Assembly: GCA_016219005.1 (NCBI GenBank)
Contig: JACRCN010000020.1
Span: 1-62,933, forward strand
DNA: 62,933 nucleotides
Origin: Deltaproteobacteria bacterium
GTDB lineage: Bacteria > Desulfobacterota > Desulfobacteria > Desulfobacterales > SpSt-501
Direction of reading: 5' to 3'
Numbering within the stretch: the stretch's first letter is position 1; each line of letters opens with the position of its first letter. Positions 5,232 to 35,000 of the stretch are shown here, piece after piece. A program made the position numbers and the translations under genes. The notes under the pieces are model-generated. The model was not told the DNA's origin. It was given only the letters and a program-made list of their open reading frames with translations, and ran no database searches.

Positions 5232-6338
5232 CTATATGATCATATTAAACAGGTAGCCCACGATGAGTATCCCCAAGCCGACCACGCCCACAAAGGTTGC
5301 GATAAGCCGGACCCTGAGTACTTTGCGCAGGATGAGGATTTCCGGCAGGGACAGGGCGATGACGCTCATCATGAAGGCGAGCACCGTACCTAAAGCCGCG
5401 CCCTTCTCCAGCAGCGCCTGGACGATCGGGATCATCCCCGCCGCATTGGAGTACATGGGGATGCCGATGAGAACCGCGATCGGCACCGACCACCAGGCCT
5501 CCTTGCCCATGATGGCCGCCAGAAAATTCTCAGGCACGTAGCCATGAATAAGGGCGCCCACGGCAATCCCCAGAACGATCCATTTCCACACTTTGCCGAC
5601 AATGTCTTTCACGGCATCCAGCCCGTATCGCACCCGGTCCCGCAGAGTTTGGGCGCCGGATTCCACTGGGGCCTCGGCCGCCCGGATCTCGGTGACCCAG
5701 CCTTCGATATGCCGTTCCATCTTCAGCCGCCCGATCACCCAGCCGGCGACCATGGCGATGAGAATCCCGGTGCCCATGTAGATGGCGGCCACTTTCCAGC
5801 CCAAGAGCCCATAGAGCAGCACCAATGCGACCTCGTTCACCATCGGCGCCGAGATCAGAAACGAGAAGGTGACGCCCAGAGGAATGCCGGCTGTCACGAA
5901 ACCGATGAATAGCGGGATGGCCGAACAGGAGCAGAAAGGGGTCGCGACCCCCAGGAAGGCTGCCAACACATTGCCCAGCGTCTCTTTTTTCCCCGCCAGA
6001 ATGCGGCGGGTGCGCTCCGGCGTGAAAAACGAATTAATGATCCCAACGCCGAACACCACGATGGTGAGCAGCATCAGGACCTTGGGCGTGTCGTAAATGA
6101 AAAACTCAACGGCATCCGCCAGGTGCGATCCGGGTGTCAATCCGATGAGATCATAGGTCAGGTAGCGTGCAACAGGCAAAAGGCTCTGATAGACCAGCCA
6201 CCACGCGGCCAGAGTCGCAATAAAAACAGCCACCTCCGGCGGTTTGATTTTTTTAGGGGCTGCAGCGGTCTCTAAGGAAAAGGTCGCTTTCGGTCCGGCG
6301 CAGCAGGTTTTGAACTCGGCCATTGGTTTCAGTTGCAT
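5232..6338 (-). CDS. arsP: ArsP-type organoarsenical efflux permease
   Basis: A 368-residue permease of the DUF318 family with about 8-10 membrane segments. The hallmark loop GVATPFCSCSAIPLFIGF is present, as is the second-half LIGIPMYSNAAGMIPIV, reflecting the internal repeat of the family. ArsP exports trivalent organoarsenicals such as methylarsenite across the inner membrane, which fits the arsM gene nearby. A CC pair near the N-terminus (FKTCCAG) may help bind arsenic. The ATG at 6338 is preferred over an upstream GTG because GAGGTG lies at the right distance. It is between acr3 and the transglutaminase-like gene. Confidence 0.93.
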   Translation of the reverse strand: MQLKPMAEFKTCCAGPKATFSLETAAAPKKIKPPEVAVFIATLAAWWLVYQSLLPVARYLTYDLIGLTPGSHLADAVEFFIYDTPKVLMLLTIVVFGVGIINSFFTPERTRRILAGKKETLGNVLAAFLGVATPFCSCSAIPLFIGFVTAGIPLGVTFSFLISAPMVNEVALVLLYGLLGWKVAAIYMGTGILIAMVAGWVIGRLKMERHIEGWVTEIRAAEAPVESGAQTLRDRVRYGLDAVKDIVGKVWKWIVLGIAVGALIHGYVPENFLAAIMGKEAWWSVPIAVLIGIPMYSNAAGMIPIVQALLEKGAALGTVLAFMMSVIALSLPEILILRKVLRVRLIATFVGVVGLGILIVGYLFNMII

Positions 6339-6492
6339 TGGTAGCACCTCAGAAATAATCTCGCGTTTGAACCACGCGAGGCGTTTGCCCGTCCGGCCAC
6401 ATCTTGCAGCGCTTTGACGGCTATCTTGTTGGGGACCAGCAGGACTTTAGACTTACCTTGCTTTGAGTCCTGAGCTTCCAGCTTTGAGCCTC

Positions 6493-7584
6493 CTAAGGCT
6501 TACACGTCACGTGACAGACGCCCGTTGGCCCCTGGACCGCGTAGGGGTAGTATTTGCGCTTGAACCAAAAAGCGGCATTCACGAGGGTGATCAGCACCGG
6601 CACCTCGACGAGGGGGCCAATGACCGCCGCGAAGGCCTCGCCGGAGTCGATGCCGAACACCGCCACGGCCACCGCGATGGCGAGCTCGAAATTGTTCGAG
6701 GCCGCGGTGAAGCTCAGGGTGGTGGACTGCTCATAGGTCGCCCCGGCCTTCATGGAGAGGAAAAAGGAGACGAAGAACATGATCACAAAGTAAATGCACA
6801 GCGGGACGGCTATCCGCACGACGTCGAACGGCAGCTGGACGATGTATTCACCCTTCAGCGAGAACATGACCAGGATGGTGAACAGCAGCGCAATCAGCGT
6901 GATCGGGCTGATTTTGGGAATGAACTTCTGCTCGTACCAATCCCGGCCTTTGGTTTTGAGCCCGATGAAGCGGGAGACCATCCCGGCGATGAACGGGATG
7001 CCAAGGTAGATGAACACACTTTCGGCGATCTGCCCGATGGAGATATCCACCACCATCCCCTGCATGCCGAGCCACTGGGGCAATACGGTAATGAAAATGT
7101 AGGCATAAACCGAGAAAAACAGCACCTGGAAGATCGAGTTGAAGGCCACCAGCCCGGCGCAGTATTCCCGGTCGCCGGCCGCCAGATCGTTCCAGACGAT
7201 CACCATGGCGATGCAGCGGGCCAGCCCGATGAGTATGAGACCCACCATGTACTCATGATGACCCGACAGGAGAAGGATGGCTAAAAAAAACATCAATATC
7301 GGGCCGATCACCCAGTTCTGGATCAGCGACAGCGTCAGGACCTTCACGTTGCGGAACACCTGGGGCAGTTGCTCGTATTTCACCTTGGCGAGCGGCGGGT
7401 ACATCATCAGGATCAGGCCGATGGCGATGGGGATGTTGGTGGTGCCGACCTGGAAATAGTTGATCAGCTCCCGGATGCCTGGGAAAAGATAGCCCCACAT
7501 CACCCCCACGAACATGGCCAGAAAGATCCAGAGGGTCAGGAAGCGGTCCAGAAACGAAAGCCTTTGGGTCGTTGAATCCGTCAT
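6493..7584 (-). CDS. acr3: ACR3-family arsenite efflux transporter
   Basis: A 363-residue integral membrane protein of the ACR3 branch of the bile-acid:sodium symporter superfamily, which exports arsenite using the proton gradient. The conserved Cys of the transport site is in [14 protein letters not shown], and [14 protein letters not shown] is the typical crossover-helix motif. The start at 7584 follows AGGAGGAG; an in-frame upstream extension reaches into arsR1 and looks non-coding. About 145 bp downstream contain only low-complexity GCTTTGAG-like repeats before arsP. It is the second gene of the arsR1 operon. Confidence 0.96.
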
Positions 7585-7657: not shown

Positions 7658-8065
7658 TCAAGGTGTTCCGGCGGCGGTGCTGCCAATCGGGCAGGGCTTT
7701 CGACGCGCATTCTGGCGGCCGCAGAGGACCTCGCGGCCCGTCTTTAAAATTTTGGCCATTCGAGTAGCGTCCCTGCGGGCGACCGGGTCGTTTGTCAGGG
7801 ACCGCCGCAGCCAGGCGATCGCCTCCTTCACGGCCGGTGATGCATGCTCACCGGCCAGCCGATAGTTCATCCAGCGTCCTTTTTTCCGGCCGTCGATGAG
7901 GCGGGCCTGGCGCAGGATGGTCATATGCTTGGAGACCGTCGACGGCGCCAGTTCCAGGAACTCGATCAGCTGACAGACGCACAGCTCACGGCCGTCCAGT
8001 ACCAGCAGCGCGCGCACGCGGCTTTCATCCGCAAGCGCCCGGGTAATCGCCAAGACTGATTCCAT
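7658..8065 (-). CDS. arsR: ArsR-family repressor (copy 1)
   Basis: A 135-residue winged-helix repressor of the ArsR/SmtB family. The arsenite-binding motif ELCVCQL sits at the start of the DNA-recognition region and is followed by [18 protein letters not shown], the recognition helix. On binding As(III) the protein should release its operator. The ATG at 8065 follows GGAGGTG. The C-terminal tail carries one more Cys (VLCGRQ) and is Arg-rich. It is the promoter-proximal gene of the minus-strand operon arsR1-acr3-arsP-transglutaminase-like-arsN2. Confidence 0.93.
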
Positions 8066-32879: not shown

Positions 32880-33560
32880 ATGCAAATCAAAAAATCTCAA
32901 TTGGTTTTGGGTGCGACTTTATCGTTGCTTGCCACGTTGGGCTGGCTCTACCATCCCAACCAAAGCTTTGCCGATGAAACCGAGATTACGATGCTCTCGG
33001 TTTTCAAGTTTGCCGGCGGCATGGCTTCCGCCTTTATGGTCCACGAGGGAGCACACTTTGCAGTCGCTAAAATTACCGGAACCCATTTGGGTTGGGAGGT
33101 GGGAAACTATAACCAGCCGATTGCCTTTACGGAAAATGCCAAAGACGACTCCGATGGAGTTGCCGTCTATTCAGCGGGATTGGTTGCTCAGGTGTTGAGC
33201 TCCGAGGTTATTTTGGATGTCGACAGGATCAATAAAAATGATGCGTTTGTAAGGGGAATGATGGCCTGGAATATCGTAAACCCGATCATGTATGCGTTGG
33301 ATTACTGGTTCATTCATATTTCCAACGACCAGAACGGCGACTCCTATCAGGGCGATTTGCAAGGGATCGAGCATTATTCCAGCGAGCGAACGGCCAATAT
33401 TTTCGCAGGCTCGATGGTCGCGCTCGCCACCTTACAGGGCTACCGGTTTTTGAAGACCCAATCCTGGGCACCGGAGTGGATCAAGGATAAAACCCAGAAT
33501 CTCCAATTCATGAATACGCCCGACGGCGGATTTTTTTTGGGCCTTAAAATCGATTTCTGA
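32880..33560 (+). CDS. Membrane protein with HEGAH motif (M50-like metallopeptidase candidate)
   Basis: A 226-residue protein with an N-terminal hydrophobic segment (about 7-24), a second hydrophobic stretch (about 40-55) that leads into MVHEGAHFAVAKITG (HExxH at 55-59), and a later NIVNPIMYALDYW. The HExxH inside a membrane helix plus a downstream NP/D motif recall site-2 (M50) proteases, but the protein is short and otherwise unlike the family members I know. GC content and codon use are lower than in the flanking genes, suggesting transfer. Its 3' end overlaps the convergent selenoprotein candidate by 17 bp. Confidence 0.6.
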   Translation: MQIKKSQLVLGATLSLLATLGWLYHPNQSFADETEITMLSVFKFAGGMASAFMVHEGAHFAVAKITGTHLGWEVGNYNQPIAFTENAKDDSDGVAVYSAGLVAQVLSSEVILDVDRINKNDAFVRGMMAWNIVNPIMYALDYWFIHISNDQNGDSYQGDLQGIEHYSSERTANIFAGSMVALATLQGYRFLKTQSWAPEWIKDKTQNLQFMNTPDGGFFLGLKIDF

Positions 33561-33768
33561 ACTCGAACTCGTCCAGCACCCGGCGGACGTTGGCCAGGCA
33601 TCAGGTGCCCTTGGGGTTCTTGACGGCGCACATACAATCGCCCAGGCGCTTGGCGGCAGTGATTTTCTCAAGGATGAGCGACCGACGATTCTGCATCAGA
33701 TCCTGCTCAATGTCTCCGCGCGTGTAATTGAAGCAATAGCAGATCATATCCGCAGGACGATGGTTCAT
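33544..33768 (-). CDS. BFD/CopZ-like [2Fe-2S] protein with in-frame UGA, likely selenoprotein
   Basis: Reading from the ATG at 33768 gives a 74-residue protein if the TGA at 33603-33601 is read as selenocysteine. The sequence has ICYCFNYTRGDIEQDL, CMCAVKNPKGT-U-CLANV and a normal TAA stop. BFD-like [2Fe-2S] domains of the CopZ type end in NPxG-CC-L, so UGA replaces the first Cys of a conserved pair. Just after UGA the mRNA can form the stem CCUGGC/GCCGGG with loop CAACGUCC, which contains the GU expected in a bacterial SECIS. The ATG overlaps the moeA stop (ATGA). Without Sec insertion it would be a 55-residue truncated product. Confidence 0.72.
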
Positions 33769-35000
33769 AACCGGCCCCCCTCGTAGGGCTGCGGCCCGAG
33801 CAGTTGGACGTGAATCGATTCATCAGCGGGGATTTCGTCACGGTCCTCGGGGAGGATGATCAGCGCCTCCTTTTCAGCCATGGATTTCAGGCGGCTTTTC
33901 AAGCGCGCCGGCGATACCCAAAGCTCTCCATCTCTAACTTTCAGCCGCGCGTGGATGAAATCGGTCCAGCCGACCTCCCCGGTCACCGATTCCGCCAAGC
34001 GTGCGGCAGCCATGGGAAAGGGCTTTGGCGCGGCACCCTTCATTTTCATGAGGGCCGGCAGTGCCAGCTGCAAGAAAGCCATCTCGTTCGAGGGCGGGCC
34101 GCCGGGAAGCACGAAGAAGGGCTTGCCGGCCAGCAGGCCGAAACCCACGGGTTTTCCCGGGCCCATCCGCACCCGGTGATAGACCCCCTGCCACTGCAGG
34201 GATCCAACCACCTGAAAGATCAGGTCCTTCTCGCTGCCCCAGGCGCCGCCGCTCGTGAGAAACACGTCGGCGCACGGGAGCAAGCTCAGGATCGCCGCGC
34301 GGATATCTTCCCGGCGGTCTCTGACAATGGCGGTCTCAAACGGGATGTCGAAGGCCGCCAGCCAGCCGCAGATCTCGACCATGTTGCTGGCGTAAAGCTT
34401 TCCCGCCGGCAGGGGCTCTCCAGGCGCCACCACCTCGTCGCCCGTGGCAATGACCGCGGCCCGTGGCGGCCGATGCGCCGTTACGGAGCCATGGCCGGCG
34501 GCCGCGATCAAGCCGAGCAGCGGCGCTGTGAGCACTTCGCCATCGCCGGCCACCATCGCCCCCGACGTCACATCGGTGCCGCGCGGAAGGATATTGCGGC
34601 CGGCTGAGGCCGTGTTGGTGCAGATGACTACACCGCCTGCGACCCGGCAGAACTCCTCCGCGAGAACGGCATCGGCGCCGTCGGGCAGCCGGGCGCCCGT
34701 GGTCACCCGCACGGCGGCACCGGGGGCGATGTGCAGGATGCGCATGTCCCCCGCGCTGAGGGATCCCGCCAGTTTGAGCGCAACCGGGGCGTCTGCCGCG
34801 GCCTTGTCCAGGTCCCGGGAGACGACGGCAAAGCCGTCCTTGCGCGAAGTGCTGATGGAAGGGCTGTCCACGCAGGCCACGATGTCCCCGGCAAGGGTGC
34901 GGCCGACCGCCTGGAGCAGAGCGACCTCCTGCACCCCGCAGGTCGCGACATGAGCCAGGGTCAGCCCGAGGGCTTCATGAAAACCGATGAACGTTCTCAT
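33765..35000 (-). CDS. moeA: Molybdopterin molybdotransferase (MoeA)
   Basis: A 411-residue protein with the MoeA N-terminal region, the central molybdopterin-binding domain and the C-terminal domain. Visible motifs are PSISTSRKDGFAVVSRD, TGARLPDGADAVLAEE, VIATGDEVVAPGEPLP, FLTSGGAWGSEKD and GKPFFVLPGGPPSNEM. MoeA inserts molybdate into adenylylated molybdopterin in the cytoplasm, needed by ArrA and the other Mo enzyme here. It stands alone on the minus strand apart from the overlapping selenoprotein candidate, and is divergent from the nuo operon. Confidence 0.93.
   Translation of the reverse strand: MRTFIGFHEALGLTLAHVATCGVQEVALLQAVGRTLAGDIVACVDSPSISTSRKDGFAVVSRDLDKAAADAPVALKLAGSLSAGDMRILHIAPGAAVRVTTGARLPDGADAVLAEEFCRVAGGVVICTNTASAGRNILPRGTDVTSGAMVAGDGEVLTAPLLGLIAAAGHGSVTAHRPPRAAVIATGDEVVAPGEPLPAGKLYASNMVEICGWLAAFDIPFETAIVRDRREDIRAAILSLLPCADVFLTSGGAWGSEKDLIFQVVGSLQWQGVYHRVRMGPGKPVGFGLLAGKPFFVLPGGPPSNEMAFLQLALPALMKMKGAAPKPFPMAAARLAESVTGEVGWTDFIHARLKVRDGELWVSPARLKSRLKSMAEKEALIILPEDRDEIPADESIHVQLLGPQPYEGGRL

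Follow-up and report, generated by a model that had tools for sequence, protein, structure and literature searches.

The window analyzed here is the whole 62,933-nucleotide stretch of contig JACRCN010000020.1 (assembly GCA_016219005.1). On its minus strand, directly behind moeA (domains MoeA_N, MoCF_biosynth, and MoeA_C), lies a short gene whose frame reads MNHRPADMICYCFNYTRGDIEQDLMQNRRSLILEKITAAKRLGDCMCAVKNPKGT-UGA-CLANVRRVLDEFEFRNRF-TAA, with only one in-frame TGA (Table 1). Its ATG start overlaps the moeA stop as ATGA, as the original prediction had it, and the mRNA would probably be co-translated with moeA through this overlap. With the TGA taken as selenocysteine (Sec), the protein begins MNHRPADM, reads NPKGTUCLANV across the recoded codon, and ends in EFRNRF. 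Because moeA itself terminates in UGA, this codon is still a normal stop in the window's genome.

A listing of open reading frames (ORFs; translation table 11, 60-amino-acid minimum) contains nothing in this frame, in keeping with the expectation that simple ORF finders would miss the gene. Direct reading bore out that the frame is open on both sides of the TGA, and its family-like character holds as well: relatives, mostly 40–71% identical, retain both flanks. With both flanks retained and substitution constrained, the predicted selenoprotein frame is far beyond chance. The window protein stays below the cut-off of every NCBIfam 20.0 model, and annotation will therefore probably miss or shorten the gene.

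Table 1. Coordinates of the predicted selenoprotein gene and associated features in the window
Feature	Position	Strand	Remarks
Selenoprotein gene, stand-alone BFD-like [2Fe-2S] domain (predicted)	33544..33768	-	74 codons + TAA, frame read
In-frame UGA, codon 56, taken as selenocysteine	33601..33603	-	Aligned with first Cys of CC in Cys homologs
Cys10-x-Cys12 codons	33733..33741	-	Invariant in alignment A1
Cys45-x-Cys47 codons	33628..33636	-	Invariant in alignment A1
Cys57 codon, adjoining Sec56	33598..33600	-	Invariant in alignment A1
moeA, directly upstream	33765..35000	-	Stop shared with selenoprotein start as ATGA
SECIS stem-loop (candidate)	33571..33588	-	5' arm 33588-33582, loop 33581-33578, 3' arm 33577-33571
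Stem CCUGGC/GCCGGG of the original prediction	33579..33598	-	Formable, unconserved, not taken as SECIS

Conservation of the In-Frame UGA and Selenium Machinery

Homologs of the gene were found in 54 of 146 related genomes (the window's own included). An in-frame TGA is present at 53 of the 55 matched places, exactly one in 52 cases and two in the other; it is lacking at two places, of which one (G055) is a degenerate match of partial length and the other (G075) an unrelated long ORF. Later counts leave out L067 (partial, with a degenerate end) and L070 (an unrelated long ORF). A phylum-wide draw of 395 genomes yielded matches in 85; 67 of their 90 places hold exactly one TGA and 23 hold none, 15 of the latter ending short of the Sec column. 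Cys occupies this column in five of the eight stop-free places that reach it (G233, G200, G489, G196, and G026), and Ser, Thr, or Gly in the other three, which are more distant (G160, G312, and G260). Named Marinimicrobia and Ignavibacteria loci also have Cys there. The Cys forms (G233, G200, and the Marinimicrobia and Ignavibacteria loci) read NPKG[ST]CC or NPRGRCC, a general pattern of NPxGxCC, and Sec56 is therefore the position of the first Cys in a CC pair. Apart from the three Ser, Thr, or Gly matches, this alignment upholds the claim that the UGA sits exactly where Cys belongs. The Cys-form domain of one genome (L102 in G200) lies within a 709-residue open frame, which by eye seems to continue into a MerA-type FAD-dependent oxidoreductase.

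Base-by-base reading of 84 genomes, a set chosen for having the TGA, showed a Cys codon (TGC or TGT) directly after it in every one; a partial match at a contig end (G043) lies outside this reading. Sec56 is invariant in alignment A1, together with Cys10, Cys12, Cys45, Cys47, and Cys57. Within the window's genus, pN/pS is 0.38 before the UGA and 0.53 after it (21 pairs; 12 codons after the UGA), and over 2,628 pairs from the window's subfamily (sf1) the values are 0.41 and 0.47 (again 12 codons after the UGA); coding constraint is thus found on both sides of the codon. Over the same pairs, pS drops past the UGA, from 0.58 to 0.25 in the genus and from 0.84 to 0.53 in sf1. A pN/pS below one together with a lower pS after the UGA is the pattern expected where an RNA element lies within coding sequence.

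These data bear on two readings in which no Sec is inserted. The UGA could be a true stop, yielding a 55-residue protein ending in NPKGT, with the downstream conservation incidental; UGA does act as a normal stop in this genome, where it ends moeA. The purifying selection past the codon (pN/pS of 0.53 and 0.47, over 12 codons), the Cys homologs that continue straight through its position, the invariant Cys after it, and the covarying stem-loop downstream (see below) all argue against a true stop, which we consider very improbable. A decayed Cys gene, in which TGC or TGT has mutated to TGA, would need a single-base change, and one partial, degenerate relative is known (G055); however, the same TGA occurs in 84 genomes with a covarying stem after it, and purifying selection persists, leaving this explanation with hardly any probability.

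The window's genome has selA (609 bits), selB (two genes, 378 and 281 bits), and selD (two genes), along with a tRNA-Sec (anticodon tca, UCA) located just upstream of one selB and detected with both Rfam and ARAGORN. The machinery named in the original prediction is thus present. The two selB genes are divergent, and both selD genes have an in-frame TGA (L011, L012, L205, and L206) through which an N-terminal UxxK is read. UxxK is the motif given for Sec-containing selenophosphate synthetase (PMC13188914), so these genes are an independent sign that UGA is decoded as Sec here. A second Rfam tRNA-Sec match over the cut-off (L004) was rejected, since ARAGORN identifies it as tRNA-Leu; only L003 is tRNA-Sec. 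The selA gene was found in 140 of the 146 related genomes and in 79 of 80 chosen phylum genomes, Cys-form genomes included; as it is almost universal in the group, it is necessary but non-discriminating, and co-occurrence has little power. None of the six selA-less relatives is among the 54 carriers of the gene (Fisher p = 0.085), and those six genomes are only 65–89% complete.

Stem-Loops Downstream of the UGA

The original prediction placed a stem, CCUGGC/GCCGGG, directly after the UGA. Although this stem can form, and has the lowest energy of the local folds, it is not the SECIS: it is unconserved in relatives, has no excess stability (z = −0.73, −0.78, and −1.05), and covaries no better than shuffled sequences. 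Its pairing (75.9%; mean of the shuffles, 75.3%) was matched by 110 of 500 shuffles and by 222 of 1,000 in a second shuffle test, its 5 doubly changed cells by 108 of 500, and its covariation score by 90 of 500; two coarser measures were somewhat high (double-change pairs, reached by 27 of 500 shuffles, and pair types, by 22 of 500). The published bacterial SECIS (bSECIS) model has a loop of 3–9 nt with G in one of the first two places, 16–37 nt from the UGA, and an energy limit of MFE ≤ −7.5. The loop of CCUGGC/GCCGGG begins about 8 nt past the UGA, which is therefore too near, and has G only at the fifth place.

A different stem, GUCCGCC-[A/G]GGU-GGUGGAC, is conserved; it begins 12 nt past the UGA, with its apical loop about 19 nt past it. 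It was scored over 72 distinct sf1 sequences (the 84 genomes less 11 of a second subfamily, sf2, with one identical sequence collapsed); L114 (G466), which reads GRUC, is outside this set. In the 72 sequences 92.1% of cells pair, 17 are doubly changed, and four of the seven pairs show a double change. None of 500 shuffles matches the stem in covariation score, doubly changed cells, or paired fraction; 1 of 500 does so in pair types, and 12 of 500 in double-change pairs, the one weaker measure. All slid registers score lower on every measure. Among the changed pairs are a C-G outermost pair and a G-C inner pair in L099, and an A-U outermost pair in L065.

G is present in the first two loop places in 72 of 72 sequences, and 47 of the 72 stems attain −7.5 kcal/mol with no flanking sequence (18 nt). 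The window's own stem has one inner C-C mismatch, and locally it refolds with a bulged U and a loop of five bases; its energy is −5.0 kcal/mol on the bare 18 nt and −8.5 with 6 flanking nt (24 nt). Rfam found no match at gathering thresholds anywhere in the window. The conserved stem is a candidate SECIS that fits the published bacterial model. Members of sf2 (L068, L069, L071, L072, L108–L111, and L115–L117) read TGACxxxRC...PRxRUC, with an in-frame UGA at the same place; a candidate stem, CUCCU...AGGAG with a GGGU-like loop, was seen by eye.

Because homologs have Cys at codon 56, the genome holds Sec machinery and Sec-encoding selD genes, the UGA is conserved, and the putative SECIS covaries, we regard Sec insertion at this codon as very probable, and the proposal of a selenoprotein hidden by an in-frame UGA is supported. 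SelB and the Sec-tRNA with anticodon UCA would insert Sec at position 56, guided by the SECIS 12 nt past the UGA.

Family Assignment and Proposed Cluster Ligands

The sole Pfam match of the window protein up to E = 10 is Fer2_BFD (PF04324; residues 8–67, E = 0.0011, 19.7 bits, below the gathering score of 26). Its best family match is the NCBIfam model CopZ_Nterm_CC (NF047645; E = 1.9e-14, 54.1 bits, below the cut-off of 100), which spans positions 83–137 of 138, the C-terminal half only; the N-terminal part is absent. All 36 members of A1 match this model (E ≤ 0.001). It is named "putative iron-sulfur cluster-binding metallochaperone" and has Cys where the window protein has Sec; a Marinimicrobia relative (L121) passes its cut-off (124.9 versus 100 bits) and has a longer N-terminal part. 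The model CopZ_Nterm_CU (NF045877; Csac_0668) describes the same domain, also in a selenoprotein, and is matched at E = 3.2e-5, but its motif is CU instead of the window's UC, and the match to its 161 positions scores 24 bits against a cut-off of 190. The copper-binding HMA domain is absent from the 74-residue protein (Pfam, up to E = 10). The predicted product is a stand-alone BFD-like domain related to the N-terminal domain of CopZ, not a CopZ copper chaperone.

A "(2Fe-2S)-binding protein (copper chaperone Copz family) form 1, GxUC" is already listed in a 2026 review (Table 1 in PMC13188914, with cd10141 and the representative WP_245779778.1), as is form 2 (Csac_0668, motif CU). The review treats both as high-confidence predicted selenoproteins, citing the 2008 GOS selenoproteome paper, and both are also listed in PMC9312934. 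In the available main text of the GOS paper (PMC2398784) no mention of CopZ, 2Fe-2S, or BFD was found, and the available text of PMC12013277 and PMC5029168 does not mention this selenoprotein family. The window protein, reading GTUC, has the GxUC motif; like form 1 (PMC13188914), it has Sec two residues after Gly and one before Cys, a CopZ-type BFD-like domain, and the standing of a bacterial selenoprotein predicted from sequence. This likeness is drawn from the listed motif and family description, and form 1 may correspond to the window's subfamily (sf1), to sf2, or to a longer protein. The window gene belongs to an already catalogued kind of selenoprotein, the GxUC type of the CopZ family.

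A structure model built on three sequences (the window protein and two Cys relatives) has a mean pLDDT of 79.8 in the best of five, the other four lying at 55–71. The top VIA-align row of this model is Bfd, bacterioferritin-associated ferredoxin (PDB 4e6k, chain G; 53 residues, rmsd 2.6, 19% identity), with Z = 5.4, a value within the range under 8 that is flagged as possibly a mere common arrangement; the other rows reach 3.7 at most. Bfd holds its cluster with the ligands CxC...CxxC, and we know of no Bfd with Sec. A Foldseek search of the PDB with the model found no match at E ≤ 0.001, and bromodomains filled its list. Of the PDB sequences found by phmmer, the best was a bromodomain (E = 0.12), followed by 2hu9 (E = 0.4); the bromodomain rows of both searches were treated as chance. 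In the 2hu9 alignment (E = 0.4), a CC pair lies opposite Sec56-Cys57. We take 2hu9 to be the N-terminal domain of CopZ from Archaeoglobus fulgidus, its cluster ligands presumably being the CxC, a single middle Cys, and the latter Cys of the CC pair; in that case, the Sec56 position would be a non-ligand beside the cluster.

The product would thus be a 74-residue stand-alone protein of the BFD fold, with two CxC motifs and a Sec-Cys pair. By homology it probably binds a [2Fe-2S] cluster, and Sec insertion in a BFD-like protein, taken as a whole reading, has a very high probability. The original assignment to a BFD/CopZ-type [2Fe-2S] protein stands as regards the stand-alone domain and the CopZ-family match, with cluster binding drawn from homology, but does not extend to the CopZ copper chaperone. 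Four Cys, or three Cys and Sec, would hold the cluster. Since there are six invariant Cys and Sec groups and a [2Fe-2S] cluster needs two fewer, we propose that the two left over lie beside the cluster as a pair that is redox-active or binds metal(loid)s; Sec56 and Cys45 are the likeliest candidates for it. The protein might then shuttle electrons between its cluster, a one-electron center, and a substrate of the Se-S, thiol, or metalloid kind.

Gene Neighborhood and Possible Roles

Six of the seven genomes of the window's genus carry a moeA-like ORF upstream, in the same orientation, and in five of the six no more than 22 bp separate its end from where the match starts; moeA is found in 0 of 60 wide loci outside the genus. 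The pairing with moeA, and Bfd as the best fold row, would suit a plain Bfd-like electron-transfer ferredoxin for a molybdenum-cofactor or other redox enzyme, in which Sec tunes the cluster or is itself a ligand. The two invariant groups beyond the need of a [2Fe-2S] cluster, and the lack of moeA at all 60 loci elsewhere, count against such a ferredoxin, which seems to us possible but unlikely. In the window's genus the protein may serve molybdenum-cofactor enzymes or general redox control.

Elsewhere, the recurrent neighbors are an ArsP_1 permease, a thioredoxin-type ArsC, ACR3, and an ArsM-like methyltransferase, as well as ArsR-like regulators, a small thioredoxin-like protein, and a PF04060 Fe-S protein. 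The 60 wide loci examined (5–14 kb each) were hand-chosen from about 110 Sec-form places, partly for long contigs and with the window's genus left out. At least one of ArsP, ArsC, ACR3, and ArsM is near 23 of these 60 loci and near 0 of 20 control loci, the controls all being of one kind (around selA) and the arsenic gene families having been noticed before they were counted. Such neighbors occur at 18 of 55 sf1 loci (Fisher p = 0.002 against the controls) and at all five sf2 loci widely examined. Three of the sf1 loci are weak: L128 and L145 (methyltransferase of about 200 bits, about 4 kb away) and L174 (permease, 71 bits). With these three removed, 15 of 55 sf1 loci stand against 0 of 20 controls (Fisher p = 0.008). 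Near sf1 genes, 29 of 34 arsenic-type genes are on the same strand. At 37 of the 60 loci there is no arsenic-type neighbor.

The window also contains a group of arsenic-type genes, at about 3.2–11.2 kb and more than 20 kb from the selenoprotein gene: ACR3 (6574–7560, minus strand, over the cut-off), an ArsP_1 permease (5235–6347, minus strand), an ArsR-family HTH protein (near 8065, minus strand), a PF04060 Fe-S protein (near 9.0–9.5 kb, minus strand), and a methyltransferase that is ArsM-like by eye (near 3.2–4.1 kb, plus strand). At another locus (L028), a methyltransferase fragment lies about 400–800 bp upstream of the BFD selenoprotein gene; it best matches the ArsM double-selenoprotein models NF041536 and NF041537 (276 bits, below the cut-off and with part of the model matched), so that two selenoprotein families may possibly stand side by side.

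These surroundings bear on a further reading, in which the two CxC motifs and the Sec-Cys pair bind a soft metal such as As(III) or Cu(I) and pass it on to an exporter, the protein being metallochaperone-like, with or without an Fe-S cluster. The NCBIfam name of the Cys relative and the presence of an ArsP-type permease or ACR3 near many relatives are consistent with a carrier, whereas the absence of the copper-binding HMA domain from the 74 residues, the pairing with moeA in place of a transporter in the window's genus, and the 37 loci without arsenic-type neighbors are not; we consider a carrier somewhat doubtful. Put more broadly, as a role in metal(loid) handling, whether by redox chemistry or as a carrier, the suggestion from neighborhood and chemistry is one that we offer tentatively. 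In many relatives this role may lie in the handling of arsenic.

A literature search of a limited PMC set found no paper linking the CopZ-family GxUC selenoprotein to arsenic, and such a paper may exist elsewhere; the neighborhood link of the family to arsenic detoxification is possibly new. A narrower and more speculative proposal, which we think rather improbable, is that anaerobes which use selenium employ the stand-alone UC-type BFD domain, in both its subfamilies, as a dedicated part of their arsenic (metalloid) detoxification, with its cluster wired to the neighboring selenol. If so, an Fe-S/Sec relay would pass electrons to, or carry metalloid between, ArsC, ArsM, ACR3, and ArsP-type permeases; to our knowledge, there is no biochemical description of a small relay of this kind. 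A Sec adjoining a likely Fe-S ligand Cys would be chemically unusual, and is testable. The neighboring genes for arsenic transporters, arsenate reductase, and methyltransferase suggest a concrete role to test for a selenoprotein family that is catalogued and functionally uncharacterized.
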